From the NCBI GenBank assembly GCA_016218065.1, contig JACRFA010000294.1:1-33022 (forward strand): a stretch of DNA of 33,022 nt. Reading direction: 5' to 3'. Position 1 is the stretch's first letter. Each line of letters opens with the position of its first letter. The translations under genes were made by a program, and so were the position numbers. Source of the DNA: Ignavibacteriota bacterium. Its GTDB lineage: Bacteria; Bacteroidota; Ignavibacteria; UBA10030; UBA6906. The notes beneath the pieces are model-generated. The model did not search any database and was not told the DNA's origin. It saw nothing but the letters and a program-made list of their open reading frames with translations. Shown in pieces: positions 2-21,258 of this stretch.

Positions 2-2590
2 GGGCCGCAGGAGCGCGTATCGGAATCGGTCGGGTCGATCAAAGGAAGCGTCAAGGAAAAATCTGGCGATCCGCTGGTGGGGGCGAGCGTGCTCATCAAA
101 GGAACGAAGGTCGGATGCGCCACGGATGTGAACGGCCACTATACAATTCCGAAGTTGAAGCCCGGATCGTACACGCTGGACGTGAGTTTTGTCGGATGTG
201 CATCGACGAGTCGCGCAGTTGTTGTGCGGGCGGGCGAGGCGACAGTGGCAGATTTTTCGCTCGAGCCGTCGTCGTTCATGATCGGCGCGATTGAGTGTGT
301 GGGAGAAACAGAGTTGCTGCCGAAGGAGGCACAGACGAAAACAGTGATCACCGGCGCGGAGATCGAACACTACCAGGCATCGAGCGTTGGCGATGTGCTT
401 GATCTTGTTCCCGGAATTCAGAAGAGCGCGAATCCCGGCATTGCCAGGTCGAGTCTGGCGGCCGTTCGGGGTAACAACGTGACCGGGAATCAGGCCGACT
501 ACTTAGGCGAGTTCGGGACGCTCGTTGTTGTTGATGGGATTCCTATGTCGAATAACGCGAATCTTCAGTTCGAGAAGGTTACCACCTCAACCACAGGATC
601 AGGGAATCTCGGGCGCAGCGCCGATCTCCGCATGATTCCAGCCGATAACATCCAGACGATTGAAGTCGTCAGTGGAATTCCGTCGGTGCGCTATGGTGAT
701 GTTACGTCCGGTATCATCAACGTGCAAACGAAAATCGGGCGGCAGCCACATCGTCTCAAGATCAAGACCAACCCCGACACGCGGGAGGCAAACCTCGGCG
801 GCGGATTCGGTCTGGGCGAGTCGGGCATCAGCTACAATCTCAATGTTGCGCAAAGCGAGCGCAACGTTCGGCTGGAGGGAGACGAATTCTCGCGCCTGAC
901 GGGCCAGCTTGTTCTCTCGAACACCCTGTTTGAAAATCAACTGACGATGAACAACAAGGTTCTGGTGCAGCGCATCTTTGATGAAGAGGCGCCGAAGGAT
1001 GATGTGTTCCGAACGAGGAACTACAACCGCGGCTACACGCTCACGTACGGGCTTTGGGGCAAGTACGTTCCGCTTGAGAGTGTCTCGAACCTCGAATACA
1101 ATACCTACGTCACGTATCGACGTGAGAACAGCATGAAGTCCAAACTCGTGCAATCCGATCTTCGCATTCTCCCAACGGGCGACACGATTTCGACCTACAC
1201 GGGGAAAGTTGAAACCAGAGGAGCAGAGTGGACCATCGGAGGCAGACTCGAATGGAACACGCTGTTCTATACGGGCGATCTGATTCACCGATTGACGGTG
1301 GGAAGCGACGTGCAGTACAACGCAAACACCGGCGAGGGTCTTCTCATCGATTCGCTCTACAACTACTACGGCTCGACCTCGGGCCGACGATCGTACGCGT
1401 TCGACGAGATTCCAGGTCAAACGCTTTTGAGCTTCTATGCAGAAGACAGATTCACCGGCCAGCTCGGCGTGGATTTCAGCCTAAGTATCGGCGCCCGTTA
1501 CGAAACATATCGACCATTTGCATTCAATATCAAGGGACTCTGGGGAGATGGCGATCTTGTTCGTTCGCATCAAGGATCATTCTTCAACCCCCGCCTGAAT
1601 CTGCTTGTGTACTTGACTGATGAGAATCAGATTCGTCTGAGTGCAGGTCTCTCCTCCAAATCGCCGTCGATGAGTAGCATCTATCCGGCACCCGATGTAT
1701 TGCAGTGGCGTAACCAGGCAACCACCCAGACTCTCTACTTCCATCCCGATCGACGCGCCCCCGGGCTGAAAGGATATCGCGAGGGGCAAGTTGAGGTTGG
1801 CTACGACCACAAGTTGTTCGACGTCGTTGGCGCATCTGTTTCCGCCTACTACAAAAAGCGATCGAATGAACCAATCGAATCAAGCTATCCGGTCTTCACA
1901 ACAATGAGTGAGGCCGGAATAACGAAAGCATACTTTGTCGATACCTACACACGGTATGGCAATTCGGGATCGACTGAATCGAAGGGCATTGAGCTTTCGC
2001 TGCGCACAGTACAGATCAAGCCGCTGAACATGCAAATGCAGATCACCGGCTCGTACACTTTTTCGAAGCGGAAGAAAAATGCCTATGAATTTGCGGAAGC
2101 CGCCGATACGAGCATAGGTCGGTACGCGACGTATCGAGTGGTGCAGGGTCCGGTTGATACGCTCATCGGCTTTCTCTATCCCCGCGCGGGCGGTTGGGAT
2201 GAGCGGCTGATTCTGAATTACTATCTGAAGTACACGCTTCCACCACTTGGGTTGTGGATGACTTTGCGCGCAGAGTACACCTTGCTGGAGAACTATCAAG
2301 AACTCGACCTCAAACCACTCGACTATGCAAAACTTACACCTACCGGTCAAATGCAGCGCGACTTTGATGCCGCCGTCAGTCGTAAGCCAGTAAAGTGGCT
2401 CTTCAATCTCAACATTAGCAAGTCACTGTTCGCCGGAGCGGAGGTTTCGTTCTACGTGAACAACTTCCTCGACGAGCCTGCGATCTGGAGGCATTATTCG
2501 AGCCTCACACAGACGAGTGAGACAATTCGCAATCCTGATCTCTTCTATGGGATCGAGTTCAGCATGTCAATCGATCATTTACTCAAGTGA
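2..2590 (+). CDS. TonB-dependent outer-membrane receptor, 5'-truncated by window edge
   Basis: This is an outer-membrane active-transport receptor, presumably energised by TonB/ExbBD. The reading frame is open from base 2, so the signal peptide and true start lie outside the window; the in-frame GTG at 77 falls inside a domain and is not a credible start. The visible N-terminus is a carboxypeptidase-regulatory-like beta-sandwich (G-S-V-K-E at codons ~15-19, then a D-V-N-G-H-Y-T-I turn). A plug domain follows, with the A-E-I-E-H-Y and V-V-D-G-I-P-M elements and an E-V-V-S-G-I-P-S-V-R-Y-G-D-V-T-S-G-I segment. The rest is a large barrel of alternating aromatic strands. The terminal residue is Lys, not the usual aromatic. 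The lipoprotein gene starts 9 bp after the stop, so they are co-transcribed. The family is clear; the ligand cannot be read from sequence. Confidence 0.92.
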   Translation, partial: GPQERVSESVGSIKGSVKEKSGDPLVGASVLIKGTKVGCATDVNGHYTIPKLKPGSYTLDVSFVGCASTSRAVVVRAGEATVADFSLEPSSFMIGAIECVGETELLPKEAQTKTVITGAEIEHYQASSVGDVLDLVPGIQKSANPGIARSSLAAVRGNNVTGNQADYLGEFGTLVVVDGIPMSNNANLQFEKVTTSTTGSGNLGRSADLRMIPADNIQTIEVVSGIPSVRYGDVTSGIINVQTKIGRQPHRLKIKTNPDTREANLGGGFGLGESGISYNLNVAQSERNVRLEGDEFSRLTGQLVLSNTLFENQLTMNNKVLVQRIFDEEAPKDDVFRTRNYNRGYTLTYGLWGKYVPLESVSNLEYNTYVTYRRENSMKSKLVQSDLRILPTGDTISTYTGKVETRGAEWTIGGRLEWNTLFYTGDLIHRLTVGSDVQYNANTGEGLLIDSLYNYYGSTSGRRSYAFDEIPGQTLLSFYAEDRFTGQLGVDFSLSIGARYETYRPFAFNIKGLWGDGDLVRSHQGSFFNPRLNLLVYLTDENQIRLSAGLSSKSPSMSSIYPAPDVLQWRNQATTQTLYFHPDRRAPGLKGYREGQVEVGYDHKLFDVVGASVSAYYKKRSNEPIESSYPVFTTMSEAGITKAYFVDTYTRYGNSGSTESKGIELSLRTVQIKPLNMQMQITGSYTFSKRKKNAYEFAEAADTSIGRYATYRVVQGPVDTLIGFLYPRAGGWDERLILNYYLKYTLPPLGLWMTLRAEYTLLENYQELDLKPLDYAKLTPTGQMQRDFDAAVSRKPVKWLFNLNISKSLFAGAEVSFYVNNFLDEPAIWRHYSSLTQTSETIRNPDLFYGIEFSMSIDHLLK

Positions 2591-2599
2591 GATGATACG

Positions 2600-3694
2600 A
2601 TGAAGAAGTTCATAGTAGCAGTCTTCCTCAGTCTAATACTCGTGGCGGGCTGCGCCGAGAATCCGCCATCGATGGTGGATGGTAACGGGACTCTCTATCT
2701 CATCGCAGTCTGGGATTCGACTGATGGCGCCGTTCCCAATGCACCTTTGCTTCCGATGTCGTTTGCCAAAGTCATCATCCTCTCCGAGTACGGATTGATG
2801 ATTCGTGAAACCGACGGCAATGGAATACTTTTTCTCGACATGCTCCCCGCGACCACCTACACCCTCTCCGCTCGAAAACCAAATCCGAACCGACCGAACA
2901 TGCAGATCGTGGGGAGCAAACTGGACGTGTTGGTCTCTGCAGGCGCCATTCGGCGCGACACAGTTTTCGGTCAGAGCTTTTCAAGCACCGGAATCGCGAT
3001 CAATGAAGTCTATGCGTGTGGTCCGGTGAATAGCGTATTCTACTTCTACGATCAGTATATCGAGTTGTACAATGGAAGCGACAGTCTGCGCTATCTCGAT
3101 GGGATGATGGTGATGCGCTTCTCCGGCAATGGCGCAGGGAAAGGCCCGGGCGGAGATGAAGGCGACGATGGCGACATTGATGGTGCAACGTACGAGTTCA
3201 AGTTTCCGGGAGTGCCGGGTGAACGCAACTATCCAATTGCGCCTCGTCAGTTTGTCGTGTTGGCCCAGGACGCTGTTAATCACTCAACGAGCTGCGCGGG
3301 GGCAATCGATCTCACACGCGCAAATTGGGAATTCTACAATCAGTTCTCCGGCAGCGACATCGACAACCCGAACGTTCCGAACCTCATCAACATGCGCTCC
3401 TCGCACACGACTGATTTCTTTTTGAGTGTCACGAACGATGTCGTGGTGGTATCAGCGGGTCGAGACTCAAACTATGTGGATGGGATCGATATCGTTGACG
3501 TTATCGATGGCGTGGAGTATCAAACCAGTTCCAATCTGCTCAAGACACTCGATCGTCGCGTGGATCGCGGCTTCGCCCTCAGTCCTGGCTCGTATAGCGG
3601 CAAGTCGATGCAGCGCCGCGAGCCGGGCAGCGACACCAACGACGGAATAATCGATTTCGAAATTCTCAATGTACCAACACCCGGAAGGCAATGA
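2600..3694 (+). CDS. DUF4876-type lipoprotein with lamin-tail-like domain
   Basis: This is a predicted surface or periplasmic lipoprotein of 364 residues. The N-terminus is a lipoprotein signal with lipobox L-V-A-G-C and lipidated Cys18. Residues ~30-110 look like a small beta-sandwich similar to carboxypeptidase-regulatory domains (an E-T-D-G-N-G-I-L-F-L-D turn). From residue ~131 (G-I-A-I-N-E-V-Y) the pattern N-E-V-Y ... Y-I-E-L-Y-N-G-S resembles a lamin-tail domain, which matches what I recall of DUF4876 proteins. An acidic Gly/Asp-rich loop (G-D-E-G-D-D-G-D-I-D-G, ~residues 190-200) could bind cations. It sits directly behind the TonB receptor, so it may be the receptor's substrate-binding partner, in the way SusD serves SusC. 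That is inference. Its stop codon overlaps the next start (ATGA at 3691-3694), implying translational coupling. Confidence 0.8.
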   Translation: MKKFIVAVFLSLILVAGCAENPPSMVDGNGTLYLIAVWDSTDGAVPNAPLLPMSFAKVIILSEYGLMIRETDGNGILFLDMLPATTYTLSARKPNPNRPNMQIVGSKLDVLVSAGAIRRDTVFGQSFSSTGIAINEVYACGPVNSVFYFYDQYIELYNGSDSLRYLDGMMVMRFSGNGAGKGPGGDEGDDGDIDGATYEFKFPGVPGERNYPIAPRQFVVLAQDAVNHSTSCAGAIDLTRANWEFYNQFSGSDIDNPNVPNLINMRSSHTTDFFLSVTNDVVVVSAGRDSNYVDGIDIVDVIDGVEYQTSSNLLKTLDRRVDRGFALSPGSYSGKSMQRREPGSDTNDGIIDFEILNVPTPGRQ

Positions 3695-4581
3695 TGGAAT
3701 ACGCAGTTGAATGCAAAAATCTTACTCACTACTACGGCACGAGGCTCGTGTTTGAGAACATGAACTTCAATGTTCGTCGCGGCAGCATCTTCGGCTTACT
3801 GGGAAAGAATGGAACAGGGAAGACAACCACGATCAACATCCTGAACGGATTTCTTTCCCCGACAGGCGGGCAGTGTCTTGTCTTCGGCGAAGACTCGCGC
3901 AATCTTTCGCCTGCGACCAAAGCGCGCATGGGCTTCCTCATCGAAGGGCACATTCAGTATTCGTTCATGAACATCCGGCAGATCGAGAAGTTCTACTCCT
4001 GCTTTTTCCCCAAGTGGAACAAGGAACCCTACTACGAGCTGATGGCGAAGCTTGAAGTGACGGAGAACCAGAAGCTCTCGACCATGTCGTGCGGCCAGCG
4101 GTCGCAGGTTGCACTCGGGTTGATTCTCGCGCAGGACCCGGACTTGATGGTGCTGGACGATTACTCGATGGGACTCGATGCAGGCTACCGCCGTTTGTTT
4201 CTGGATTATCTCACTGAGTATGCCCACGGCGAAGGGAAGACGATCTTTATTACATCGCACATCATTCAGGATCTCGAGGCGTTCATGGACGACTGCGTCA
4301 TCATCGACTATCGGAGCGTACTCGTGACGATGTCGTTGAAGCAATTCAGAGCGGAGTTCAAGCGCTACTCGTTCGACGTGACCAATCCAGCATTGAAGCT
4401 CGTCAAGGACGGAGTTGTCAAGAATTTCGAGTTGATTCGAACCCACGCGTCGATCTACTCATTCAATCCATTGCCGGAAGTAGAGCACTACCTGAACGCA
4501 CATGGCGTCGAGTTCAGCGGCCTGCATGAAGTGCCGATGTCTCTCGAAGACGCATTCATCGGAATAACCGGAAAGTACTAG
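3691..4581 (+). CDS. ABC transporter ATP-binding protein with atypical catalytic motifs
   Basis: This is a 296-residue cytoplasmic ATPase that should power the permease encoded next. Walker A is G-K-N-G-T-G-K-T (residues 38-45), the signature is S-C-G-Q-R-S (133-138) rather than L-S-G-G-Q, Walker B is L-M-V-L-D (152-156), and the switch histidine is H190 (T-S-H). The residue after the Walker B Asp, normally the catalytic Glu, is Asp157 (L-D-D-Y-S-M-G-L-D), so the usual D-E-P is D-D-Y. A C-terminal extension of ~80 residues follows the nucleotide-binding fold. The start overlaps the lipoprotein stop, with GGAAGG at 3683-3688 as ribosome-binding site; a second ATG at 3694 is an equally possible start. 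It is similar in build to ATPases of ABC-2 exporters such as BcrA/YtrB/GldA types. Confidence 0.9.
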   Translation: MMEYAVECKNLTHYYGTRLVFENMNFNVRRGSIFGLLGKNGTGKTTTINILNGFLSPTGGQCLVFGEDSRNLSPATKARMGFLIEGHIQYSFMNIRQIEKFYSCFFPKWNKEPYYELMAKLEVTENQKLSTMSCGQRSQVALGLILAQDPDLMVLDDYSMGLDAGYRRLFLDYLTEYAHGEGKTIFITSHIIQDLEAFMDDCVIIDYRSVLVTMSLKQFRAEFKRYSFDVTNPALKLVKDGVVKNFELIRTHASIYSFNPLPEVEHYLNAHGVEFSGLHEVPMSLEDAFIGITGKY

Positions 4582-4589
4582 GAGATCGC

Positions 4590-5258
4590 ATGTACAAATC
4601 AGTTGTCTATAAGGAATGGTTGAAAATTCGCTGGGCGTATGCGGCAATGATTCTCATCAGCGTTCTTGCTCTCGGCAACACGATTCTCAATCTCAAATCA
4701 GTCGTGAGATTCCACTCGCCGGTTGCTGTATGGTCGGCGGTGATTCTGCAAAGCTATTTGTTCTACGACATCTTCAGGTTCGTTCCGTTGCTCGTTGCCC
4801 TTGTGATAGCAGCGTCGCAGTTCGTTCCAGAGGTTCACTCGAGTCGATTGAAGTTGAGTTTGCATCTCCCGGTACGTGAGAACACGATCGTGATGCAGAT
4901 GCTTTCCGTCGGTCTGATTGGCGTGGCGCTGATCTATGCCTTCATCGGTCTCGCTCTCTCGATCATCACCGCGGTGAACTTTCCGACAGAAGTACTCACC
5001 AGCATGCTCTTGACGATTGCACCGTGGTTTCTCGCCGGTGTTGTGGGATACCTCGCGCTGGCAACGGCAATCGTCGAGCCTCGTTGGATACGCAGGGTCA
5101 TTCTGGTTATCGTGGGGTATGGATTTGTCGATACACTTCTTGTCCTCGGCACGTTCAAGATGTACGAACGGGTGTTGCCACAACTGACGATGCTGGGAAG
5201 CTTCTTCACACTGGGGATTTTGCTTTCCGCGTATCGATTCCGAAGAGGTGTCCGATGA
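4590..5258 (+). CDS. ABC-2-like permease, six predicted membrane segments
   Basis: This 222-residue polytopic inner-membrane protein has predicted helices near residues 18-36, 61-80, 103-128, 137-162, 170-188 and 199-217. It has a short basic cytoplasmic N-terminus (Y-K-E-W-L-K-I-R) that resembles the start of ABC-2 permeases. The ATPase stop codon is embedded in its ribosome-binding site (TAGGAG, 4579-4584), 5 bases before ATG 4590, so the two are coupled and should form one transporter. The gene ends in an ATGA overlap with the next gene. I recognise the topology and context rather than a specific named family. No periplasmic binding-protein gene is nearby, which favours an exporter or mechanotransmission role over classical import; this is inference. 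Confidence 0.82.
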   Translation: MYKSVVYKEWLKIRWAYAAMILISVLALGNTILNLKSVVRFHSPVAVWSAVILQSYLFYDIFRFVPLLVALVIAASQFVPEVHSSRLKLSLHLPVRENTIVMQMLSVGLIGVALIYAFIGLALSIITAVNFPTEVLTSMLLTIAPWFLAGVVGYLALATAIVEPRWIRRVILVIVGYGFVDTLLVLGTFKMYERVLPQLTMLGSFFTLGILLSAYRFRRGVR

Positions 5259-6499
5259 ACCTCATCAAGATTGGTCGAGCGCTACTTCTTCTCGTCATCG
5301 CAGCAGTTGCTGCAATCGTCGTTCCGTACTATTACTGGCTTGCATTCGATGTCCGCATCCCGATCACGGGTGCGCGCTACAGTCCTGTTACCGATAAGCT
5401 CATATTGACGCGAGCGACGGAGAAGGAAACGAAGTACGTTGATGTCGATGGCAAGTCATACACACGCGATGAGTTCGAGCGACTCACCCCTTTGCTGAAT
5501 TACAGACAGCTTGCAATGGCGGGCACAATGCCCGAAACCTTGCGTGGTGTTCCCATTGACGTCAAGGAAGTTGCCCTCAATAACCTTCTTGTGCGCGGGG
5601 TTCCCGAGTATCTCGACGTCCCGCAGATTCCTCTCTTTCCGATGCTCGAATCGCAATCGGGGAGGGCAAAGCTTGAAATGCCGGACGAATTCTTCCGCAT
5701 CGGTCAACGAATGGAGTTCCTCGATGCGAAGACCAACAGGGTGAATGAGGAGCGGTCGGTGCTCTTTACACAGGCGCTTCAAGAAACGGGATTCGCGTTT
5801 CCGGCAAAACATATCGACGGCAACCCGACGACACGCAAGGCGTTCGACGAAGGATATTTTGTCGTCGATGCAGCCGATCATCTGTTTCACATCAAGCAGG
5901 TGAAGGGGAGACCGTATTGTGCATCGATAAAAACTCCGGACGATCTGAGAATTCGCTACATGATCATTCAGGAGTTTGCCCTGCGCGAGTTCTACGGCAT
6001 CATCATCGCTGAGGACGGGCGCGTCTACCTGATCTCGTACTCGGGTTACAAGTTGATTGCTCTTCCGATTCCCGCCTACGATCCATCGACCACCACGTTG
6101 ATGGTGCAGGGCGATTTTTTCTTCCGAACAATCAGCCTGACATCGCCGGGAAATCTCAACGTGACTGTGACGGACAGAAACTACAACGTCGTCGACTCCT
6201 ATAAGGAGTCATGGCCGACGAAGTTCGAACGACCACCCGGCATTATTGCGTCGTATCTGTTTCCGTTCACTGTGAGTCTGTCCGATTGGAGCAGCTCGTT
6301 CCTTAACCTGTATGTTCGCTGTTCGCATTGGGCCGGACTTGTGGGAATTGCTCTTTCGCTTGTCATCATTCTCACGATCTGGTTTGTGCGCAAGAAGAAG
6401 ATCGCGACTCGCTGGTTTGATCTGTTGGTTGTTGCAGGCACAGGAGTTTTTGGTTTGATCGCCGTTCTGCTGATCGGCGGCGTTGACGATTCTGTTTGA
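5255..6499 (+). CDS. DUF4857-type membrane-anchored periplasmic protein
   Basis: This 414-residue protein has one N-terminal membrane helix (~8-27), a ~330-residue predicted periplasmic domain, and two C-terminal helices (~360-377 and 389-408) separated by a basic loop (V-R-K-K-K-I-A-T-R). The periplasmic part opens with D-G-K-S-Y-T-R-D-E-F followed by N-Y-R-Q-L, a pattern I associate with DUF4857. It continues with repeated beta-rich units (D-A-A-D-H-L-F-H-I-K, E-D-G-R-V-Y-L-I). The ATG at 5255 overlaps the permease stop (ATGA), which decides the start; upstream in-frame sequence lies inside the permease gene. The topology resembles GldG-type accessory subunits that sit beside an ABC ATPase and permease. 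Function is not known; it may link the inner-membrane transporter to the envelope partners. Confidence 0.78.
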   Translation: MNLIKIGRALLLLVIAAVAAIVVPYYYWLAFDVRIPITGARYSPVTDKLILTRATEKETKYVDVDGKSYTRDEFERLTPLLNYRQLAMAGTMPETLRGVPIDVKEVALNNLLVRGVPEYLDVPQIPLFPMLESQSGRAKLEMPDEFFRIGQRMEFLDAKTNRVNEERSVLFTQALQETGFAFPAKHIDGNPTTRKAFDEGYFVVDAADHLFHIKQVKGRPYCASIKTPDDLRIRYMIIQEFALREFYGIIIAEDGRVYLISYSGYKLIALPIPAYDPSTTTLMVQGDFFFRTISLTSPGNLNVTVTDRNYNVVDSYKESWPTKFERPPGIIASYLFPFTVSLSDWSSSFLNLYVRCSHWAGLVGIALSLVIILTIWFVRKKKIATRWFDLLVVAGTGVFGLIAVLLIGGVDDSV

Positions 6500-6519
6500 A
6501 TCAATTTGTGTGATGTGAT

Positions 6520-7971
6520 ATGAAAAAACCGATGATACTCACGCTGCTGCTCGCCGTGTCAGTTGTTGCATCCGCACAGACGCTTCGCTTGCAATCGATG
6601 GGAGGAATGACGCTCGGGATTCGAGATACACAGCTGTCAATCAACCTCTATGACTTTGGCAGAAATCCGGCGTGGCTGCTGCGCGATGAAATCCAGAGCT
6701 GGTTGGAGATTACTCCGCGCTTGGATGACTCGTGGGGCAGCTACAGGAAGAAGTTCGACCCGCAAACATTTGAAAATTACCGGCTCGGGTTCGAAGGAGT
6801 GCAGGCGCTTGGGGAGAAAGGAACATTCCGGGGCTACGCATCCTACGTTTACGAGCGGCGTCGCGATGTGTATCGTGCGTTGAAACGCGTTCCCTACGGA
6901 GGCGACGCCTTCTTTCTGACCGATACAACAACGGGGAACATCAGATATAATGGGCCGCTCGTTCAGTTCATGTACGCCTATGATCTGTTTGACGACCTCC
7001 TTATTGGTGTATCGGGAACCTACCAAATTCTTGATGGCTTGAAAGATCGTTACAGCCGCATCAAAACAATTTGCAGAAACCTCGAGGGTACAGTTGGCCT
7101 CGCGTATCAGGTAACTCCCGCGTTGAGTGTCGGCGCAACGTTTACACCTGCAAGCGGTCAGGAAGGGATTGAGGCAAAAAGCGACGAGGTGTACAGTGTG
7201 GAGGTGTTCAACTTCCGCGGTGAAACGTACGCGTTCCGTCAGATGGGAAGTTCCGTCGATCACAAAATCAAAGTCAACGGCGAGTCAACATCGCTGCAGG
7301 CTGTGTGGCAAGCCGATTCTTCGCTGGTAATCGGGATGCGCGGCGAGTACGGCGTTGACCGAACACATGTGCTTGTCACTCGCAGCGCATCGATGGAACG
7401 GGAGGAAGGAACGGCGAGTCTTGAACACTATGCTGTCGATCTGCAAGTTCAATATGTCCCAGACAATGATTTCAGCCTCGGCGTGCTGGCGCAATACAGC
7501 AAGAACCGGGAGTGGTCGAAGTACACGACTCTTGATCTGCTGTTGTGGGACTGGAAGACTCGGGAATTTGCTCTTGGCATCGGGGCATCGTACTCGCTTG
7601 TTCCGAGTCGTTGGCTTCTCGGCGCTGAGTATCAATACTCCGGCGGCAAAGTCGATTCATCCAAATACATCGACAACAAATTTCGTTCGGAGACTTTTGC
7701 TGTACACACGTTCCGATCAGGCGTTGAATACCAGCTCTTCGAAAACGCGGCGGCACGCGTGGGGTATGCCGGTCGGATCAGTTCGTTTGATGTTGTGAGT
7801 GGAGGGAAGGATGTTGTGTTTCATGGAATCACCGGAGGCGGCACGGTGTGGATCAATAAAGATATCCAGCTCGATCTGCTGATCGAACACGGAAAGGCGT
7901 CGCCGCGAAACTCGGGCGTTTCGCGCACGGTGTTGAATGCAGGCGCTGCATTACGATTGTGGTCACGTTAA
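6520..7971 (+). CDS. DUF6850-type outer-membrane beta-barrel protein
   Basis: This 483-residue protein has a clear signal peptide (M-K-K-P-M-I-L-T-L-L-L-A-V-S-V-V-A-S-A, then Q-T-L). The mature part is made of alternating hydrophobic/polar strands with aromatic girdles (for example L-L-G-A-E-Y-Q-Y-S-G-G), typical of an outer-membrane barrel. It ends in a strand-like L-N-A-G-A-A-L-R-L-W-S-R. An early F-G-R-N-P-A-W-L motif resembles the N-P-A signature of many Bacteroidota barrels. I assign it to DUF6850 mainly because such a barrel accompanies DUF4876 and DUF4857 proteins as I recall; that label needs a profile check. It lies 20 bp after the DUF4857-type gene on the same strand. No strong Shine-Dalgarno is visible before ATG 6520, which suggests read-through or leader-independent initiation. 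Confidence 0.72.
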   Translation: MKKPMILTLLLAVSVVASAQTLRLQSMGGMTLGIRDTQLSINLYDFGRNPAWLLRDEIQSWLEITPRLDDSWGSYRKKFDPQTFENYRLGFEGVQALGEKGTFRGYASYVYERRRDVYRALKRVPYGGDAFFLTDTTTGNIRYNGPLVQFMYAYDLFDDLLIGVSGTYQILDGLKDRYSRIKTICRNLEGTVGLAYQVTPALSVGATFTPASGQEGIEAKSDEVYSVEVFNFRGETYAFRQMGSSVDHKIKVNGESTSLQAVWQADSSLVIGMRGEYGVDRTHVLVTRSASMEREEGTASLEHYAVDLQVQYVPDNDFSLGVLAQYSKNREWSKYTTLDLLLWDWKTREFALGIGASYSLVPSRWLLGAEYQYSGGKVDSSKYIDNKFRSETFAVHTFRSGVEYQLFENAAARVGYAGRISSFDVVSGGKDVVFHGITGGGTVWINKDIQLDLLIEHGKASPRNSGVSRTVLNAGAALRLWSR

Positions 7972-8018
7972 AAACGGGAAGTTGGTTTTCCCCATTTCAT
8001 CATCTAAGGAGAGATCAA

Positions 8019-10232
8019 ATGAAAACTCTTCGTGTACTCTTTGTTACAATGTTACTGGGATTCTTCATCAGCGTTGCGAGCGGACAGACGTGGAGAAAGG
8101 CACTTGACCCGACCTATCCGTCAATGTCGTTCAACAAAGTATTCTTTCTGAATAGCACGACGGGCTGGGTGGTTGGATCAACCGGATTGGTCATGAAGAC
8201 CACGAATGCCGGAACGACATGGACCAGCTCGACGACGGATGCTTCGACTACAAATTACAGCGTTTACTTCCTCGACGCCAACACGGGATTTGTCAGCGGT
8301 GGGAATCGAACCTACTACAAAACAACGAACGGCGGCACGACTTGGACTCCGACAGTTGTATCGTCGATCCCCGATGCAGCAGGCATCATTCGCGCAATCT
8401 ACTTCGCCGACACACAGCGCGGCTGGATTCTTTCGACGCTTGCCAGCACGAACGGACGCATTCTTCACACGACCGACGGCGGCGCAACATGGACGCTTGA
8501 TCTGACGGTCGCAACCAACAACATGATCGACATGAGCTTTTCGAAAGCAAATGTTGGCGTTGCAACAGGCAAAAGCGCCGCCACGCTCTACTACACATCC
8601 AATGGCACGACATGGAATCTTGCTCCAACGCCGTCGCTCGGCGGGTTTACCTACTCGCGCTCTGATGTGCGCGGCGTGTACATGGTTGATTCTGCGACAG
8701 CATACGCAGTCGGCTGGGGAACGGCGGCGGCGGGCTTGCAGCCAAGCATTCATTTCAAAACGACTGACGCGGGTGCAACATGGACGTATCTAACTCAAAC
8801 AGAAGCCAATCGCACGTACGACAATCTTTACGGTGTCTGGTTCAAGGATAAGAACAACGGCATTGCAGTTGGCGGCGCTAATCGCGGAAGCGTCGTTGTG
8901 CGAACAACAGACGGCGGCGCGAATTGGATTCAGCTCAGCTTCCCGTGCGGCGCGACGTTGAATAGCGTGCATGGTTTTGGCAACACGGTGTGGATTGGAG
9001 GAGCCGACGGCGTGTTGTACCTCTCTTCTGACTTTGGAACCACGTGGCAATTACTGACGGCCATTCCTTCGGCAACTCTCTACGCGCTGCAATTCGTCGG
9101 CGCATCGACGGGCTATGCTTCCGGCTTCGACGGCATCTTCCTGAAGACGACGAACAAGGGCGTGTCTTGGAAATCATCATTCATCGTTGCGAATAAACTC
9201 ACACCGAATGTCAACGGGATATACTTTGTGAACGAGAATGTCGGGTATGTCGCGCACAGCTATCGCATGGTGACGAAGACCACCGACGGCGGCGCTACAT
9301 GGACAATGGTTCTCCCCGACACGATCACGTCAACGGTGTCATCGGCCGCAGTGTACTTTCTGGATGCGAACAACGGCTTCGTTGCCGGACAGCTCAGCTC
9401 ATCGAACAGCGTCATCTACAAAACAACAAACGGCGGCAGCTCATGGACCTCAACTGCCGGCACCGTCGCAAAATCGCTTCGCGGCGTTGCGTTCGCGAAC
9501 GCGAATATCGGCGCGGTCGTCGGTGACGGCTTGACTGCAGCCTATACCACCAATGGTGGTACGACCTGGACTGCCGCCTCGTTTGTTGGCGTGAGCGGAA
9601 CGCCGAATCTCCGCAGCGTTGTGTTCCTTGATGCGACAACGGCGATCGCGGTCGGCAATACGGTTGTCGTCAAGAGCACGAACGGCGGCGCAACATGGAA
9701 TAACATCGCGGCCGGCGCGGCGAGTCTGCTGTACAATGTGAGCAAACAGAATGCGACAACGGCATTCGCGGTTGGCAGCGGCGAAGTGTGGAAGACCACT
9801 AATGCCGGCGACTCGTGGACGAACATCATCGATGCAGGAATCGTCACCGGCACATTGTACTCCGTCTCAGTCAACCAAAACAACTACGTGTGGATTGGCG
9901 CCGCATCGAGCACAATGTTTACCAACGAGCCGGCGACAGCAGTCGATGATCGCACGCCCGTGCCCGATCGGTTCATCGTCGATCAGAATTATCCGAATCC
10001 ATTCAATCCGAGTACCACCATCTCGTTTGCGTTGCCTCGCACGAGTGCTGTCTCGCTGAAGATTTACAATTTGATCGGACAGGAAGTGGCGTCGATTGTG
10101 AATGGCGAGACGCTCGCAGCCGGCAATCACCAATATTCATTCAAGGCGTTCGACCTTTCCAGCGGCATCTATTTCTATCGCATTGTGGCGGGAGAGTTTT
10201 CGCAAACGAAGAAGATGGTGCTGTTGCAATAG
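8019..10232 (+). CDS. Secreted YCF48/BNR-like beta-propeller protein with T9SS sorting domain
   Basis: This is an exported 737-residue protein. The start is ATG 8019, supported by AAGGAGAG at 8006-8013 and by the signal peptide that begins there (M-K-T-L-R-V-L-F-V ... A-S-G-Q); the in-frame upstream extension adds a non-signal leader and is rejected. By eye I count 13 copies of a T-T-[ND]-G-G-x-x-W-type strand-turn motif, characteristic of YCF48/BNR/sortilin-like propellers, which is enough for nearly two seven-bladed propellers. The last ~80 residues are a T9SS type A sorting domain (N-Y-P-N-P-F-N-P-S-T-T-I, I-Y-N-L-I-G-Q, G-I-Y-F-Y-R). The protein should therefore be delivered to the cell surface or medium. 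It may be a cargo of the upstream envelope system or simply a neighbour. Substrate unknown. Confidence 0.9.
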   Translation: MKTLRVLFVTMLLGFFISVASGQTWRKALDPTYPSMSFNKVFFLNSTTGWVVGSTGLVMKTTNAGTTWTSSTTDASTTNYSVYFLDANTGFVSGGNRTYYKTTNGGTTWTPTVVSSIPDAAGIIRAIYFADTQRGWILSTLASTNGRILHTTDGGATWTLDLTVATNNMIDMSFSKANVGVATGKSAATLYYTSNGTTWNLAPTPSLGGFTYSRSDVRGVYMVDSATAYAVGWGTAAAGLQPSIHFKTTDAGATWTYLTQTEANRTYDNLYGVWFKDKNNGIAVGGANRGSVVVRTTDGGANWIQLSFPCGATLNSVHGFGNTVWIGGADGVLYLSSDFGTTWQLLTAIPSATLYALQFVGASTGYASGFDGIFLKTTNKGVSWKSSFIVANKLTPNVNGIYFVNENVGYVAHSYRMVTKTTDGGATWTMVLPDTITSTVSSAAVYFLDANNGFVAGQLSSSNSVIYKTTNGGSSWTSTAGTVAKSLRGVAFANANIGAVVGDGLTAAYTTNGGTTWTAASFVGVSGTPNLRSVVFLDATTAIAVGNTVVVKSTNGGATWNNIAAGAASLLYNVSKQNATTAFAVGSGEVWKTTNAGDSWTNIIDAGIVTGTLYSVSVNQNNYVWIGAASSTMFTNEPATAVDDRTPVPDRFIVDQNYPNPFNPSTTISFALPRTSAVSLKIYNLIGQEVASIVNGETLAAGNHQYSFKAFDLSSGIYFYRIVAGEFSQTKKMVLLQ

Positions 10233-10260
10233 CGCATCCACATCCAATCAGAGAATGAGT

Positions 10261-10293
10261 GCCACAACCGCTTCCGGGTGAAGTGGTTGTGGC
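10261..10293 (+). terminator. Putative hairpin terminator after the propeller gene
   Basis: Bases 10261-10274 pair with 10280-10293 in a 14-bp stem with one G-T wobble and a 5-base loop (CGGGT). It sits 28 bp past the propeller stop codon and before the peptidase gene. No T-run follows, so classical intrinsic termination is uncertain. Confidence 0.55.
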
Positions 10294-10364
10294 GAGATGC
10301 ACGGAGACTTCCGATGCAATAGGGGATGGGCTGTGCATTCGCATAAATTTCCAACAGGAGAATC

Positions 10365-13181
10365 ATGAAGAGGAATATGAGTAGAAGGATTGTTGTGCTT
10401 GGACTTTTCACAGTGGCTGTGACTGCATTATGTCTGTTGTCGGGAAGAGCCGAAGAGAAGTTCGCGGAAGGAAAAGTGTACCGGCATTCGTTGGAGAATG
10501 GTATGATGGTGCTGACAGTTGAGAGACATATCGCTCCGTTCATCTACCACCAACTCACATACAACGTTGGTTCGCGGAACGAGCGGCTCGGCATTACGGG
10601 CATCTCGCACGTGGTCGAGCACATGATGTTCAAGGGAACCCCGAAGTACAAAAAGGGAGAAACGTCGAAGAAGATCTCGGACAACGCCGGCATCTTCAAC
10701 GCGTTCACGTCGAACGACATGACGAGCTACTTCGAATATCTTCCCACTAACAAAATCGAGTTGGCGCTTGACATCGAATCGGACAGAATGCAGAACTGCG
10801 TTTTCGATCCGAAAGAATTTGACTCGGAGATTCAGGTGATTCTCCAGGAGCGCCGCATGCGGACAGAAAGTAGTCCGCAAGGAGTGATCTCCGAAGAACT
10901 GAACGCCACCGCTTTTCTGAGTCACCCGAACCGCGACCCGATCATCGGATGGCCAAGCGACCTGAAGCACGTGACGCGCGACGAGGCGTTCACATACTAC
11001 AAGACGTACTACACGCCCAACAATGCGTTCCTTGTGTTGGTCGGTGATTTTGAGACGGCGAAGATGCTCGAAACCGTCAAGAAGTATTACGGAAAAATAT
11101 CGAAGGGGCCAGCCGTTCCGCCAATGTGGGCAGTCGAACAGTATCAGCGCGTGCGGCGTAGCTTCACGCTCTACCACAATGACTTCACTGCACCGATGTT
11201 CCGCATGGCATTTCACGCGCCGACGTACGCTGATTCAGACGCGGCAGCACTGCGACTCGCCGGCATGATTCTCGCGGAGAAGAGCCGCGACGCGAGACTC
11301 TTCAAGCGACTTGTTGAGAAAGAAAAGCTGGCGTCGTCCTGCGGCGGCGGCTTGCCCATCGGGAAAGACCCCGGACTGTTTTCCATCAGCGTTTCGATGA
11401 CACCCGACAGCAACATGCAGCGAGCCGAAGATATTGTGTGGGAAGAGATCGAACGGATGCAGAAAGAGCTTGTGAGTGATCATGAACTGCAGAAGGTGAA
11501 GAATCGCTATACGTTCACGCAAGTCACGGAGTACACAAAGAACACCGACATTGGTACGCGAATCTCGCGGTACGAAACGTACTTTGGCTGGGACTTCTTC
11601 GCCGAGTTCGACAAACGGATTCACAACGTCGGCAAAGAGGATGTTCAGCGCGTCATGAAGAAGTACTTCTCGAAGTCGGGTGTGACCGTTGCATACGGAC
11701 TGCCGAAAGATGGAACGAAGAAAGCCAAACGTGTAAAGCCGGCTGCTGAAGATGAAGAGAAGGAACCGCTCGCCGAGCCACACCTGGAGCCGGAATCATT
11801 CTACTACATGCCGCCGTTCGACGTGACGACGATGCTCTCGCTTGCCGGTGAGTCATCGGACATCGACTTTCCGCGGCCCAAACCCATCGCTCCGCTCGTC
11901 AAGCAAATGAAGCTTGACAATGGTATCACCCTTTACACTGTTGAAAACCATCTCGTACCTGCGCTCTTTGTTGGCGGGAAGATTGAAACCGGCAGCATGC
12001 CCGAAGCGCGGCAAGAAGGCAAGCCCGGACTCGCGACAGTTCTTGCCGATGTCATGAATCGCGGCGGCGAGGCGATGACCTCCGAGCAATTCACCGAACG
12101 TCTGGCGTTTGTGCCATTTTCGTTTTCCACGAGCGGCAGCTATCGCAGCTTCTCGTTCCAGGGTTACGCACTCACGAAAGATGCTGACGAGATGATGAAG
12201 ACGGGATGGGACGTGGTGACGCATCCCGCGTTCCGCGACGGGGACATCACCACACTGAAAAATCGCCACATGGTTTCGGCGCGTGACCGCTTCAAGAAAA
12301 CGGGAATCGCAGCGTTCTACTATATGTTCAATCGGCTCTTTGGCAATCACGTCTATTCGCAGGTCAACAGCACCGAGGAATCGATTAAGGCGATTACGAA
12401 AGATGACTTGAAGGAATTGCACCTGAAGTATTTCCATCCCGAGCGTGCGACGTTGGTAATGATGGGCGATATGACTCCCGACCAGATGAAGTCGCTGGCC
12501 AACAAGTACTTTGGACAATGGAAGAACCCAGCACCAGCCGCGGAACCGCAGAGAATTCCGCCTGCTCCTGAATTCACCGGCAAGGAAATCAAAGTCTTCA
12601 CAGAGAACGACTACACCGAATGCACGATCAACGTCGGGTTTGCTCCATCCAATAATATTGACCCGCAGGATCGAGAAGCGGTGGCGGTGTTGAACAGCAT
12701 TCTCGCTTCAAGCGCATTGACGTCCCGTATGGGTATCGAGCTGCGCGACAAGCAAGGGCTTGTCTACGGCATCAAGAGTGAATTGTGGGGGCCGAATGAC
12801 AACATCGGCTACTGGAAATTCAATACGAAAACAAGTCCGAAGAACGCGGAAAAAGTTATCCGTGGCATCTTCTCCGAAATCCGAAAACTGATCAAGGACG
12901 GCGTTACGGATGAAGAATTGCGTCAGGCAAAGCAGCGTCAACTCGGATTGCTGCCGTTGCTCGTTGAAACACCTGACGATATTGCATCGCGCGTGTTTGA
13001 GCTTCTGAACGAGAAGTTGCCGTTTGATTACTTCGACAAGAAGGCGGATCGCATCGAGGCAATCACGAAGGTTGATCTCGTGCGGATCGCGAAGCGGTAC
13101 TTCACCCTCGATCGTTTCGTGATTGTGGTCGATGGACCGCTCGATGAACACGCACTCGACCATCTGACGAACGAACTTTAA
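10365..13181 (+). CDS. M16-family zinc metallopeptidase, fused active and inactive halves
   Basis: This 938-residue peptidase has a hydrophobic N-terminal segment (residues ~8-26), so it is probably exported to the periplasm or membrane-anchored. The inverted zinc motif H-x-x-E-H is H82-V-V-E85-H86, and the third ligand is probably E162 (I-L-Q-E-R), 76 residues on, as in the family. The second half begins near residue 505 (M-K-L-D-N-G-I-T-L-Y) and repeats the fold, but the zinc-motif position reads G-L-A-T-V-L-A-D-V-M-N-R-G-G, so it is non-catalytic. One chain thus holds the active/inactive pair that other bacteria encode as two genes or as PqqL-like fusions. A Lys/Glu-rich linker (~residues 445-465) joins the halves. 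The start is ATG 10365 with CAGGAG at 10355-10360. The polyferredoxin gene starts 35 bp downstream. Confidence 0.93.
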   Translation: MKRNMSRRIVVLGLFTVAVTALCLLSGRAEEKFAEGKVYRHSLENGMMVLTVERHIAPFIYHQLTYNVGSRNERLGITGISHVVEHMMFKGTPKYKKGETSKKISDNAGIFNAFTSNDMTSYFEYLPTNKIELALDIESDRMQNCVFDPKEFDSEIQVILQERRMRTESSPQGVISEELNATAFLSHPNRDPIIGWPSDLKHVTRDEAFTYYKTYYTPNNAFLVLVGDFETAKMLETVKKYYGKISKGPAVPPMWAVEQYQRVRRSFTLYHNDFTAPMFRMAFHAPTYADSDAAALRLAGMILAEKSRDARLFKRLVEKEKLASSCGGGLPIGKDPGLFSISVSMTPDSNMQRAEDIVWEEIERMQKELVSDHELQKVKNRYTFTQVTEYTKNTDIGTRISRYETYFGWDFFAEFDKRIHNVGKEDVQRVMKKYFSKSGVTVAYGLPKDGTKKAKRVKPAAEDEEKEPLAEPHLEPESFYYMPPFDVTTMLSLAGESSDIDFPRPKPIAPLVKQMKLDNGITLYTVENHLVPALFVGGKIETGSMPEARQEGKPGLATVLADVMNRGGEAMTSEQFTERLAFVPFSFSTSGSYRSFSFQGYALTKDADEMMKTGWDVVTHPAFRDGDITTLKNRHMVSARDRFKKTGIAAFYYMFNRLFGNHVYSQVNSTEESIKAITKDDLKELHLKYFHPERATLVMMGDMTPDQMKSLANKYFGQWKNPAPAAEPQRIPPAPEFTGKEIKVFTENDYTECTINVGFAPSNNIDPQDREAVAVLNSILASSALTSRMGIELRDKQGLVYGIKSELWGPNDNIGYWKFNTKTSPKNAEKVIRGIFSEIRKLIKDGVTDEELRQAKQRQLGLLPLLVETPDDIASRVFELLNEKLPFDYFDKKADRIEAITKVDLVRIAKRYFTLDRFVIVVDGPLDEHALDHLTNEL

Positions 13182-13216
13182 ACTCTGATTCACAATAACG
13201 ACAAAGTGGATTGACT

Positions 13217-15187
13217 ATGGCTAGCAAATCACGATACCAAAACAGAATTCGAATAGGTTTTCAAATTTTCGTCCTCGGACTGATTGCGTATGTGGCAATA
13301 CGCCCGCTCTTTGGCGGCGGTTATATCGCCGACTTCGAAGCATACTGCCCCTTCGGCGGTATCGCGTCGCTCGGCAGCAAGCTCAATCAGGGCACGATGT
13401 CGTGTACCATGGGCGAGATTCAAGTAATGCTCGGCATCGGACTTCTCGTCGGAGCCATTGTGGTCGGCAAGCTGTTTTGCAGTTATGTCTGTCCGATTGG
13501 TTCGATCTCGGAATGGCTCGGCAAGCTTGGCGAAAAGTGGAAACTCCGGTTCGATCTTCCGAACGTCATCGACCGCCCGATGCGTCTTCTGAAGTACGTG
13601 CTTCTCTTCTTGACACTCTACTTCACGATGACGTCAAGCGAGTTGTTCTGCAAAGAGTTCGATCCGTATTTTGCGAGCACGAATTTGTTCCAGAACACGG
13701 ACATCGTTTTGTATTTCGCGATTCCCGCAACGCTGATTGCCATTCTTGGCGCGATCTTCCTGCGGCTGTTCTGGTGCAAATACCTTTGCCCGCTTGGGGC
13801 AATCAGCAATATCTTTCTCAACGTCGTGGGGGCGGGTGCGGTGATTGGAGCATTTGTCGTAGCGCGGCTCCTCGGCGCGGAAGTCGGCTACGAGTGGTTG
13901 CTTGCCGGACTCGTCCTCGTCGGCGTTGTTACCGAGTTGGGCTTCATGCGGAGTTTTGTGTTTCCTGCGGCGAAGATAACCCGCGTTGCAGCATCGTGTA
14001 CCGATTGCGGAATTTGCGACGACAAGTGTCCGCAAGGAATCCAGATTTCAAAGTACGAAACCGTCACACATAGTGATTGCACGTTGTGTACCGACTGCGT
14101 CTACGCGTGCCCTCTGAAAAACACGCTGACTATTTCGAAACAGAAGACGAACATCAAGTATCTTGCTCCCGCTGCGACGATCGTGCTCGTGGCGTTGAGT
14201 CTTGGTGCAGCAAGCAACTTCGAGTTCACAACGATTGCGGAACGATGGGGCGGGTTTGATAGCGTCGGGACGGTGGAGACTTTCCAGATGAGCGGCTTGA
14301 AGAATGTGAAGTGCTTCAGCAGCGCAATGTCTGTCAAGTCGAAGTTACAATCGGTACACGGCATCTACGGCGTGGATGCCTACGCGAGTTCGCACACGAT
14401 TCGCGTGTACTACAATCCGGCAGAAATTGCCGAGACGAAAGTGAAGGCTGCGTTGTTCAGTCCTGCCAAGCAGAAGGTACGGGAAGCGAAGAAGGATTTG
14501 CCCGACTCGCTCGCCATGCTCGAGATCGGCATCTATAAGCTGTTCGACCTGATCGACTTTAACAATCTCTTTTACGCGTTGCGGGGCGACGAGGGTGTGT
14601 TCGGTTTCGAAACGCATTTTGGCGAGCCGGTGATGGCGACCATCTTCTTTGATCCGAACAACACGAACGCAGGGAAGATTCGTTCCGAGATCGAGGCACG
14701 GGAGGTCGTTGCCAAGAAGCCAACAGGCGTAGAAACGATCTCGCTCAACTTCAGTTGTGAAGATGATGGCAAAGTCGTCGGCTTCATCAACGCGGCAGCG
14801 TATAGAAAGAGGATTTTCAAAACGTACGACAGAAAGTTCAACGGCTACGAGGAACACGATCTCAGCAAACTCAACGTGCTCGTGTTCCCGATGCCCGAAG
14901 CGGATGTCACGCCGCTCCGGCGATTCTTCGGATCGCTCTCAAGCCATCTCTCTGCTGACGACGGAGTCGTACGTCTTTCGACACGGTACTTCGATGAGCC
15001 GTCGGGTCTGGTGTACTTTGATCCGACGAAGACTTCAGTTGAGAAGATACGACTGGCGTTGACGAAGCCGAAGCTCACAGTGTTCAAGACCGATACCGAA
15101 ACCCAGGACATCGCCAACCCATTCCACATCAAACCGGATGGCGTTGTCAAGAAGGGTATTGATGTTGCACAGGGAGAAGAAGAGTAA
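13217..15187 (+). CDS. Membrane polyferredoxin (NapH/CcoG-like) with C-terminal HMA-like domains
   Basis: This 656-residue inner-membrane iron-sulfur protein is likely to pass electrons across or along the membrane. Start is ATG 13217 with AAGTGGA just upstream; a TTG two codons earlier is less likely. The membrane part carries Y-C-P-F-G-G (C44), C88-S-Y-V-C92-P-I-G and C187-K-Y-L-C191-P-L-G, the paired C-x3-C-P motifs of NapH/NosR/CcoG-type proteins. Two classical 4Fe-4S motifs follow: C261, C264, C267, C271-P and C288, C291, C294, C298-P. After another helix, residues ~350-420 resemble a heavy-metal-associated fold (one Cys, C366, in G-L-K-N-V-K-C). Two more V-x-F-D-P-type beta-alpha units follow to the C-terminus. 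That tail is not usual for the family. A role in reductant supply or metal handling is inference. Confidence 0.85.
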   Translation: MASKSRYQNRIRIGFQIFVLGLIAYVAIRPLFGGGYIADFEAYCPFGGIASLGSKLNQGTMSCTMGEIQVMLGIGLLVGAIVVGKLFCSYVCPIGSISEWLGKLGEKWKLRFDLPNVIDRPMRLLKYVLLFLTLYFTMTSSELFCKEFDPYFASTNLFQNTDIVLYFAIPATLIAILGAIFLRLFWCKYLCPLGAISNIFLNVVGAGAVIGAFVVARLLGAEVGYEWLLAGLVLVGVVTELGFMRSFVFPAAKITRVAASCTDCGICDDKCPQGIQISKYETVTHSDCTLCTDCVYACPLKNTLTISKQKTNIKYLAPAATIVLVALSLGAASNFEFTTIAERWGGFDSVGTVETFQMSGLKNVKCFSSAMSVKSKLQSVHGIYGVDAYASSHTIRVYYNPAEIAETKVKAALFSPAKQKVREAKKDLPDSLAMLEIGIYKLFDLIDFNNLFYALRGDEGVFGFETHFGEPVMATIFFDPNNTNAGKIRSEIEAREVVAKKPTGVETISLNFSCEDDGKVVGFINAAAYRKRIFKTYDRKFNGYEEHDLSKLNVLVFPMPEADVTPLRRFFGSLSSHLSADDGVVRLSTRYFDEPSGLVYFDPTKTSVEKIRLALTKPKLTVFKTDTETQDIANPFHIKPDGVVKKGIDVAQGEEE

Positions 15188-16084: not shown

Positions 16085-16153
16085 TTACTTAACCTCTGCT
16101 TGGCCCAGTTTCCACTCACCGCCGAGCGACTTGCCTTCTTGACGAGATTTGCG

Positions 16154-17212
16154 ATGACAACTATCAAAGATGTTGCACGCGCTGCCGGAGTCTCAATAGC
16201 AACTGTGTCGCGTGTGTTCAACAACGTTGGTCCTGTCGACGAAGAGACGCGACGTCACGTTCGACAAGTCGCGAGTCAGATGAAGTACGTACCCAACGCG
16301 CTCGGCAGAAGTCTCAGCATACGGCGTACCGACGCGATCGGACTTTTGCTTCCCGATCTGTTCGGAGAATTTTTTTCGGAAGTGCTTCGCGGAAGTGATC
16401 AGACCGCGCAGCAGTCGCACTACCACCTTGTCGTCTCCAGCTCGCATAATAACAAAGAAGAAATTGAAGCAGCGCTCGCGATGATGCGTGGGCGTGTGGA
16501 CGGGCTTATCATCATGTCGCCGCATCTTGATGCTGAGTCGCTGAATGAGAATCTCCCGCAATCGCAGCCGGTCGTCTTGTTGAACTGTTATGTACAGAGT
16601 GATGGTTTTGATGCGTTGAACGTCGATAACTTCGGCGGGGCGTATGCCATGACGAAGCATTTGCTGTCGCACGGGCACGAACGCATCGCGATCATCAAAG
16701 GAACTGAGCGCAACTTCGACGCCGCGGAACGCTTGCGCGGATATCGGCTCGCCATGCAAGAAGCGGGACGTACGATCAGTCCGGACTTCGAGATTGGCGG
16801 CAACTTCTCCGAGTCGGGCGGGTACGATGCTGCGCAGAAACTGATTGCCATCGCGCCGCGACCGACGGCGATCTTTGCGTGTAACGACTCGATGGCGATC
16901 GGCGCGATGAGTGCGTTGCGCGATGCAGGCGTGCAGATTCCCGAGGAGGTTGCGCTCGCGGGTTTCGATGATGTTCCCATCGCGCCGTACCTGACTCCCG
17001 CTCTCACATCGGTTCACGTCGGCATTCATAATCTCGGCGTCAAGGCAATCGAAACCGTGCTTCACGCGGTTCGCAACAAGAATGGACACCACAAACAACA
17101 GATTACGCTGGAGACAACATTGAGCTTGCGAGAATCTTGCGGTTGTGAACAACAACATATCACAAACACATATCCTGATAGAGGAGGTGATGTTCAGACA
17201 GCAACCTATTGA
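16154..17212 (+). CDS. LacI-family transcriptional regulator
   Basis: This is a 352-residue DNA-binding repressor/activator. The N-terminal helix-turn-helix and hinge are classical: T-T-I-K-D-V-A-R-A-A-G-V-S, then A-T-V-S-R-V-F-N, and Y-V-P-N-A-L-G-R-S-L-S at the hinge helix. The rest is a periplasmic-binding-protein-like sugar sensor (I-G-L-L-L-P-D-L, A-I-F-A-C-N-D-S-M-A-I-G, A-G-F-D-D-V-P) ending in the common L-R-E-S-C. Start is ATG 16154, because the helix-turn-helix begins there; 18 additional in-frame codons upstream are not family sequence. The ribosome-binding site is weak. Two operator-like sites precede it, so autoregulation is likely. The neighbouring CBM9-like, TonB-receptor and GH94 genes are plausible targets, although I did not find the same 14-mer in front of them. 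The effector is presumably a sugar. Confidence 0.95.
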   Translation: MTTIKDVARAAGVSIATVSRVFNNVGPVDEETRRHVRQVASQMKYVPNALGRSLSIRRTDAIGLLLPDLFGEFFSEVLRGSDQTAQQSHYHLVVSSSHNNKEEIEAALAMMRGRVDGLIIMSPHLDAESLNENLPQSQPVVLLNCYVQSDGFDALNVDNFGGAYAMTKHLLSHGHERIAIIKGTERNFDAAERLRGYRLAMQEAGRTISPDFEIGGNFSESGGYDAAQKLIAIAPRPTAIFACNDSMAIGAMSALRDAGVQIPEEVALAGFDDVPIAPYLTPALTSVHVGIHNLGVKAIETVLHAVRNKNGHHKQQITLETTLSLRESCGCEQQHITNTYPDRGGDVQTATY

Positions 17213-21248: not shown

Positions 21249-21258
21249 GTGTTTTGAT

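Follow-up and report, generated by a model that had tools for sequence, protein, structure and literature searches.

An envelope-spanning gene cluster of Ignavibacteriota pairs a TonB receptor module with a NosY/CcmB-like ABC module and is a candidate for metal-chelate acquisition

In Bacteroidota, the parting of iron from its chelating ligand in the periplasm, as well as the fate of the ligand, is largely unknown. Known PepSY_TM proteins reduce ferric siderophores. A precedent is the xenosiderophore system XusABC of Bacteroides (BT2063-65), an iron-starvation-induced set of a TonB receptor, a surface lipoprotein and a PepSY membrane reductase, for which the importer of ferrous iron acting after XusC is described as unknown (PMC13142918). 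A second precedent comes from Bradyrhizobium, where ExsFGH, FsrB and FeoB provide periplasmic reduction, siderophore efflux from the periplasm and FeoB-dependent uptake (PMC10760861). Here, we analyze a gene cluster at the start of a 33,022-nucleotide stretch of DNA from an Ignavibacteriota bacterium (contig JACRFA010000294.1, positions 1 to 33,022, assembly GCA_016218065.1; this whole stretch is referred to below as the window), which encodes a TonB-dependent receptor, a DUF4876 lipoprotein, an ATP-binding cassette (ABC) ATPase, an ABC-2 permease, a DUF4857 protein and a DUF6850 outer-membrane barrel. We consider it about an even chance (probability of roughly 0.5) that the cluster is a trans-envelope system for acquisition of metal chelates, most likely those of iron, combining chelate uptake and periplasmic reduction with an outward-working ABC half that acts on the stripped ligand. 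Acquisition of a metal of some kind is probable, and we propose only tentatively that what the ABC half does is export the ligand.

The link to iron comes from homologues in Bacteroidales. In B. thetaiotaomicron, the genes BT3625-BT3633, which include those for DUF4857, ATPase, PepSY, DUF4876 and receptor proteins, are upregulated 37- to 128-fold by 150 uM dipyridyl in a medium containing 5 ug/mL hemin (a second column of values for these genes, approximately 14 to 19, appears to be a colitis comparison), and PG1019-22 of P. gingivalis, comprising a DUF4876 and a receptor gene, are upregulated 21- to 214-fold with dipyridyl (PMC10434189). The P. gingivalis DUF4876 gene is also among those with the strongest hemin-supply-dependent changes (PMC10470040). 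The substrate, which the initial annotation had given as unknown, is thus partly informed by iron-starvation-induced and hemin-responsive homologues. In the searchable open literature, BT3627, BT3632 and BT3633 appear in a single transcriptome paper, and no mutant or substrate study was found.

As initially annotated, and as verified by open reading frame coordinates and by reading the DNA, six genes lie on one strand with gaps of no more than 20 bp (9, −4, 8, −4 and 20 bp, in order) and two ATGA overlaps (Table 1). The DUF4876, DUF4857 and DUF6850 assignments of that annotation were confirmed by Pfam profile searches (54 bits against a cut-off of 27.9; 298 bits, 6.8e-89, against 25; and 66.8 bits against 27, respectively). 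The proposed end of the cluster at position 7971 proved too early, since the order receptor, lipoprotein, ATPase, permease, DUF4857, barrel, type IX secretion system (T9SS) propeller, M16 protease and polyferredoxin is shared with the two nearest relatives, L018 and L019 (52% identity in DUF4857), so that the block comprises nine genes (2-15187) rather than six. The window opens inside the receptor gene at the contig edge (the 5.17-Mb genome is in 319 contigs), and the receptor lacks approximately 130 N-terminal residues compared with that of L019; its missing upstream part was not found on the other contigs of the genome. In L019, an extracytoplasmic function (ECF) sigma factor gene and a FecR-type gene are located directly upstream of the receptor gene, and in further loci of Ignavibacteriota such genes again precede that of the receptor.

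When named genomes were scanned with an alignment of DUF4857, 80 loci were obtained from Bacteroidota, Ignavibacteriota, Calditrichota, Fidelibacterota (Marinimicrobia), KSB1 and Verrucomicrobiota, bearing out the suggestion that the system is broadly conserved outside Bacteroides. The suggested neighborhood survey revealed the ATPase, permease and DUF4857 triad in 70 of the 71 loci testable by contig extent, across at least 5 phyla, and the complete receptor-DUF4876-DUF6850 set in 30 of the 40 wide loci (those flanked on each side by 7 kb or more). Of 395 genomes sampled evenly from the phylum, 37 encode DUF4876 and 37 encode DUF6850 (over its cut-off), with 35 encoding both (Fisher test, 3e-45); DUF4857 was found in 15, of which 12 also encode DUF4876 (Fisher test, 3e-11). 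The gene arrangement is thus far beyond chance, and consists of two modules, receptor-DUF4876-DUF6850 and ATPase-permease-DUF4857, which mostly travel together, although each can stand alone. The proposal of an obligate single trans-envelope machine was not upheld, because 25 of the 37 sampled DUF4876 carriers lack DUF4857 and three genomes with the inner module lack DUF4876. The two modules are divergently transcribed in Fidelibacterota, and in the window's own clade the ABC genes are interleaved between the lipoprotein and barrel genes. The DUF4857 tree tracks phyla closely, with Fidelibacterota and Calditrichota each forming one group, suggesting an old system with patchy retention; within the window's own family and order, the system occurs in a minority of relatives (5 of 41).

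The three genomes without DUF4876 are green sulfur bacteria (FMO protein present), in which a single uninterrupted reading frame of approximately 660 to 680 residues encodes both the permease and DUF4857 (L128, L129 and L130). This fusion, an argument for direct contact between permease and DUF4857, counts as a single event, because all three genomes belong to one genus. Several TonB receptors are encoded beside the fused gene, and L128 and L130 also carry a PepSY_TM protein and lipoprotein CbiX-type chelatases. Where the outer-membrane module occurs without the ABC half, a CCP/MauG-type gene was found directly behind the DUF6850 barrel in 7 inspected loci (L147, L148, L149, L155, L159, L161 and L172; 3 confirmed by Pfam).

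The AlphaFold2 model of the permease (mean predicted local distance difference test score [pLDDT] of 93.3) has a six-helix ABC-2 fold, with NosY as the best structural match (7o12_E; Z 14.7 over 201 residues, 3.9 A), followed by CcmB (7f02_B; Z 14.5 over 198 residues) and, ranking lower, ABCG, PmtCD, LptG, KpsM, MlaE and Wzm; a Z of 13 can be noise for helical bundles, but here the leading matches are nearly all ABC-2 permeases and the whole protein is aligned. By its predicted structure, the permease thus has a type V (ABC-2) fold of the NosFY/CcmAB class, unlike that of an importer. By sequence, ABC2_membrane_4 was matched in 7 of 60 permease homologues, and the alignment contains a conserved stretch, QFxPE....RLKLTLHLP, which presumably sits at the position of the ABC-2 permease coupling motif. 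Searches of PDB sequences with the permease and DUF4857 profiles returned no convincing relative. Among solved structures, the ATPase is nearest to ABCA lipid transporters and then to NosF. In its family (n = 72), the signature is MSCGQR or MSCGQK in 71 proteins, 69 have Asp in place of the catalytic Glu that follows Walker B, and all 72 end in a C-terminal TGKY. Asp at this position usually lowers ATP turnover and would therefore be more in keeping with slow mechanical cycling than with bulk transport. The AlphaFold2 model of DUF4857 (pLDDT 93.8) matches generic propellers only (Z of at most 8.8), and its alignment has one near-invariant His and no invariant Cys. Foldseek matches of DUF4857 to cobalamin-binding lipoproteins reflect the fold class only and were not used as a clue to the ligand. 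The predicted fold agrees with the likeness of the inner half to NosF-NosY proposed in the initial annotation, but not with a NosD-like partner, DUF4857 being propeller-like rather than a NosD-type beta-helix; nor did the likeness to GldA-GldF-GldG gain support, the ATPase scoring 109 bits against a GldA cut-off of 403 and GldF being matched by none of the 60 permease homologues.

In the outer-membrane half, the one solved member of the DUF4876 family (4q1z, 5.8e-66) is named only as a putative lipoprotein, and the DUF6850 barrel has weaker matches to the MtrB_PioB and PorV families. A sub-threshold match to the STN domain was detected in the truncated receptor. In Bacteroidales, acidic residues after the lipidated Cys are a type of signal for the export of lipoproteins to the cell surface. 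Most Bacteroidales DUF4876 lipoproteins have several such residues just after this Cys, whereas none of 28 small OB-like partner lipoproteins has such a stretch. The lipoprotein in the window has a single acidic residue (AENPP), which makes its surface exposure less certain.

Electron-transfer proteins of three kinds are encoded beside the modules, depending on the lineage: PepSY_TM_like proteins, membrane polyferredoxins and MauG-like proteins, the last accompanying some of the loci that carry the outer-membrane module alone. A PepSY or polyferredoxin gene is present in 30 of the 40 wide loci. The two are rarely found together: among 81 loci, 4 have both, 28 PepSY only, 20 polyferredoxin only and 29 neither (p = 0.007). 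The PepSY_TM_like proteins have three conserved His residues, two invariant and one present in 91%. In the window, the likely redox partner is the polyferredoxin (Fer4_5; NapH, NosR and CcoG models), the HMA-like part of which has one invariant Cys rather than CxxC. In Bordetella, heme-copper oxidases are supported by the PepSY_TM protein CrpH and by CcoG, whose functions overlap (PMC13038864). The only PepSY_TM_like_2 copy of the genome lies apart from the operon (L145; C228:26000-40000), in the vicinity of genes for an apparent nitric oxide reductase of the quinol type and an apparent repair protein of the RIC/YtfE type (both named by eye). A small lipoprotein with a conserved Cys-x-His occurs in 23 of the 40 wide loci; it matches DUF4920 (OB-like) in one lineage and had no match among PDB sequences.

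On the reading that we favor, the DUF4876 lipoprotein and the TonB receptor, aided by the DUF6850 barrel, would, by homology, bind a ferric complex and import it into the periplasm. A membrane redox protein, as the conserved neighbors suggest, would then reduce the metal and loosen the ligand, this being the polyferredoxin here and a PepSY_TM or MauG-like diheme protein elsewhere, and Fe2+ would enter via FeoB; the genome encodes FeoB (two FeoB_C matches) and one Fur. On structural grounds, the ATPase, permease and DUF4857 may together make up an outward-working type V complex akin to NosFY and CcmAB, in which DUF4857 would be the periplasmic subunit. Rather than import metal, this complex would clear the stripped ligand from the periplasm or drive its hand-over. 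Both the substrate and the direction of transport are inferred. A bolder and rather doubtful extension is that the triad represents a new class of mechanochemical device found in at least 5 phyla, in which a NosFY/CcmAB-type motor with a catalytic Asp uses ATP to work an anchored periplasmic propeller, stripping metal from the chelate or clearing the ligand in concert with a redox partner, all within the uptake of iron.

Several observations weigh against acquisition of chelated iron by such a system. A search for E. coli-type Fur boxes upstream of the homologues found no excess over shuffled sequences, and the operon's own promoter lies off the contig. A palindrome search yielded no shared motif. 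The responses to iron are those of Bacteroidales homologues and may not carry over to Ignavibacteriota-like members. The alternation of PepSY and polyferredoxin is confounded by phylogeny, lineage explaining part of it. Transporters of the NosFY/CcmAB class act in copper or heme handling, and copper is likewise served by CcoG/PepSY pairs (PMC13038864). Because the modules are separable, the receptor does not require the ABC half for uptake.

Two alternatives, both unlikely and equally so, concern copper and heme. The receptor could import a copper chelate, with the polyferredoxin or PepSY protein reducing Cu(II) and the NosFY-like ABC complex loading or handing over copper (or another metal) for a respiratory or denitrification enzyme, as the NosY-like permease, the NosF-like ATPase, the redox partner of the NosR/NapH/CcoG class with its weak HMA-like part and the MauG/MbnH-type proteins behind the outer-membrane module in some genomes would allow. 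Yet the HMA-like part has its single invariant Cys instead of CxxC, the cluster showed no gene for a copper chaperone, copper enzymes are few in gut Bacteroides, and in Bacteroidales it is iron chelation and hemin supply that the homologues respond to. Also in favor of copper are the CrpH/CcoG overlap in support of heme-copper oxidases (PMC13038864) and an operon of a TonB receptor and a PepSY protein that imports copper (PMC12914433). Alternatively, heme or another tetrapyrrole could be imported by the receptor and its iron removed in the periplasm, with the CcmB-like ABC complex disposing of the porphyrin or moving heme. The permease fold matches CcmB (Z 14.5), reported as a heme translocase (PMC11868835), the fused gene of green sulfur bacteria lies beside PepSY_TM and two lipoprotein CbiX-type chelatases, and the P. 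gingivalis DUF4876 gene changes strongly with hemin supply; however, the homologues are induced despite 5 ug/mL hemin (PMC10434189), the cluster in the window has no chelatase or HmuY-like gene, and DUF4857 offers one near-invariant His and no invariant Cys.

The conserved M16 protease raises the prospect of Fus-like piracy of protein-borne iron, in which the receptor would import an iron protein or peptide, the protease degrade it and the ABC complex handle the released cofactor. An M16 protease gene lies close to that of the receptor in 17 loci, the window among them (HxxEH in 16), and in Fidelibacterota the two genes adjoin in the same orientation; M28 peptidases accompany 9 loci, and FusA-FusC-FusD has the same three types of parts (PMC6793856; PMC6071955). 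We regard this as the least probable of the alternatives: almost all Bacteroidales loci lack M16, and the protein is nearest to generic M16B zinc peptidases (4nnz and 3ami, approximately 1e-61) and far from PqqL (2e-17) and from 6b03, which we take to be FusC (5e-12). Only slightly less improbable is that the receptor module, for uptake, and the ABC module, for export or an envelope function, are two independent systems sharing regulation but not substrate. Each module does occur alone and the two are divergent in Fidelibacterota, but their strong co-occurrence (3e-11) and the interleaving of the ABC genes in the window's clade speak against this.

Table 1. Features of the gene cluster and its conserved neighbors in the window.
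Feature	Coordinates	Strand	Basis
TonB-dependent receptor (CarboxypepD_reg + Plug)	2..2590	+	Pfam; 5' end cut by contig start
DUF4876 lipoprotein, lipobox Cys at residue 18	2600..3694	+	Pfam DUF4876 (PF16215), 2.6e-14
ABC ATPase, ABCA/NosF kind; MSCGQR signature, Asp at catalytic-Glu position, C-terminal TGKY	3691..4581	+	ABC_tran
ATGA overlap, lipoprotein stop/ATPase start	3691..3694	+	read in DNA
Six-helix ABC-2 (type V) permease, NosY/CcmB nearest in fold	4590..5258	+	predicted structure; no Pfam family
ATGA overlap, permease stop/DUF4857 start	5255..5258	+	read in DNA
DUF4857 protein: N-terminal transmembrane helix, periplasmic propeller-like domain, two C-terminal transmembrane helices	5255..6499	+	Pfam PF16149
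DUF6850 outer-membrane beta-barrel	6520..7971	+	Pfam PF21012, 2.7e-18
Secreted YCF48/BNR-type beta-propeller with T9SS C-terminal sorting domain, conserved neighbor	8019..10232	+	
M16 metalloprotease, signal-peptide-like N-terminus, HVVEH at residue 82, conserved neighbor	10365..13181	+	
Membrane polyferredoxin, NapH/NosR/CcoG class (Fer4_5 + two 4Fe-4S motifs, weak HMA-like C-terminal part)	13217..15187	+	

The remainder of the window (16100-33022) looks like a sugar-use locus, with a LacI-type regulator, two T9SS proteins with CBM9 domains, a second TonB receptor (23441-26101), a GH94 phosphorylase and a 1101-residue protein without a Pfam match (26098-29403). Rfam and tRNA scans were empty, and consensus promoter and terminator scans stayed at or below the shuffle level. 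Among neighbors of the module in other genomes, TonB/ExbBD-like genes (named by eye) are located in the Verrucomicrobial locus L067 (5457-7280 and 9327-13756) beside those for an OB-like lipoprotein, permease-DUF4857 and receptor, and HEAT-repeat proteins of approximately 740 residues adjoin the module in more than one phylum (L030, 5616-7838; L165, 3531-5759; L170, 11165-13420). A gingipain-like identity of the latter, which also have an N-terminal part of no assigned family, was dropped, Pfam giving HEAT repeats only.

The cluster is a conserved candidate for the step at which iron and ligand part, with a strongly iron-starvation-induced homologue, BT3625-33, in a tractable host. Our reading predicts DUF4857 to be the periplasmic subunit of a NosY/CcmB-like transporter and, if true, would provide functions for three DUF families at once. 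Each type of part is known, but no description of a TonB-lipoprotein-reductase uptake set joined to DUF4857 and an ABC complex like NosY/CcmB was found in the searchable literature. BT3625-BT3633 has the same gene families and adds PepSY and a fimbrillin-annotated protein, M16 and polyferredoxin not being listed. XusABC shares the receptor, lipoprotein and reductase plan, but its lipoprotein is DUF4374, not DUF4876, and it has neither a DUF6850 barrel nor the ABC-permease-DUF4857 complex; the window cluster, with its DUF4876 lipoprotein and no PepSY gene, is not of the XusABC type, PepSY being present in many homologous loci. The assembly of copper sites by NosFY(D/L) shares the permease fold, a NosF-matching ATPase and, in the extended block, a NosR-class polyferredoxin. 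Here, an anchored propeller-like DUF4857 stands in place of NosD, a TonB receptor is coupled and the NosZ target is missing, with no nosD or nosZ in the cluster or among its conserved neighbors. The heme-translocating complex CcmAB(CDE) likewise shares the permease fold, and some loci encode a small OB-like (DUF4920) lipoprotein with a conserved Cys; however, CcmC, CcmD and CcmF were not seen in the clusters and the small lipoprotein matches no solved structure by sequence. ExsFGH of Bradyrhizobium, which acts with periplasmic reduction and FeoB, is the nearest precedent for the putative ligand-clearing step because it exports siderophore from the periplasm, although it is a resistance-nodulation-division (RND) exporter rather than an ABC transporter and exports siderophore-bound iron.

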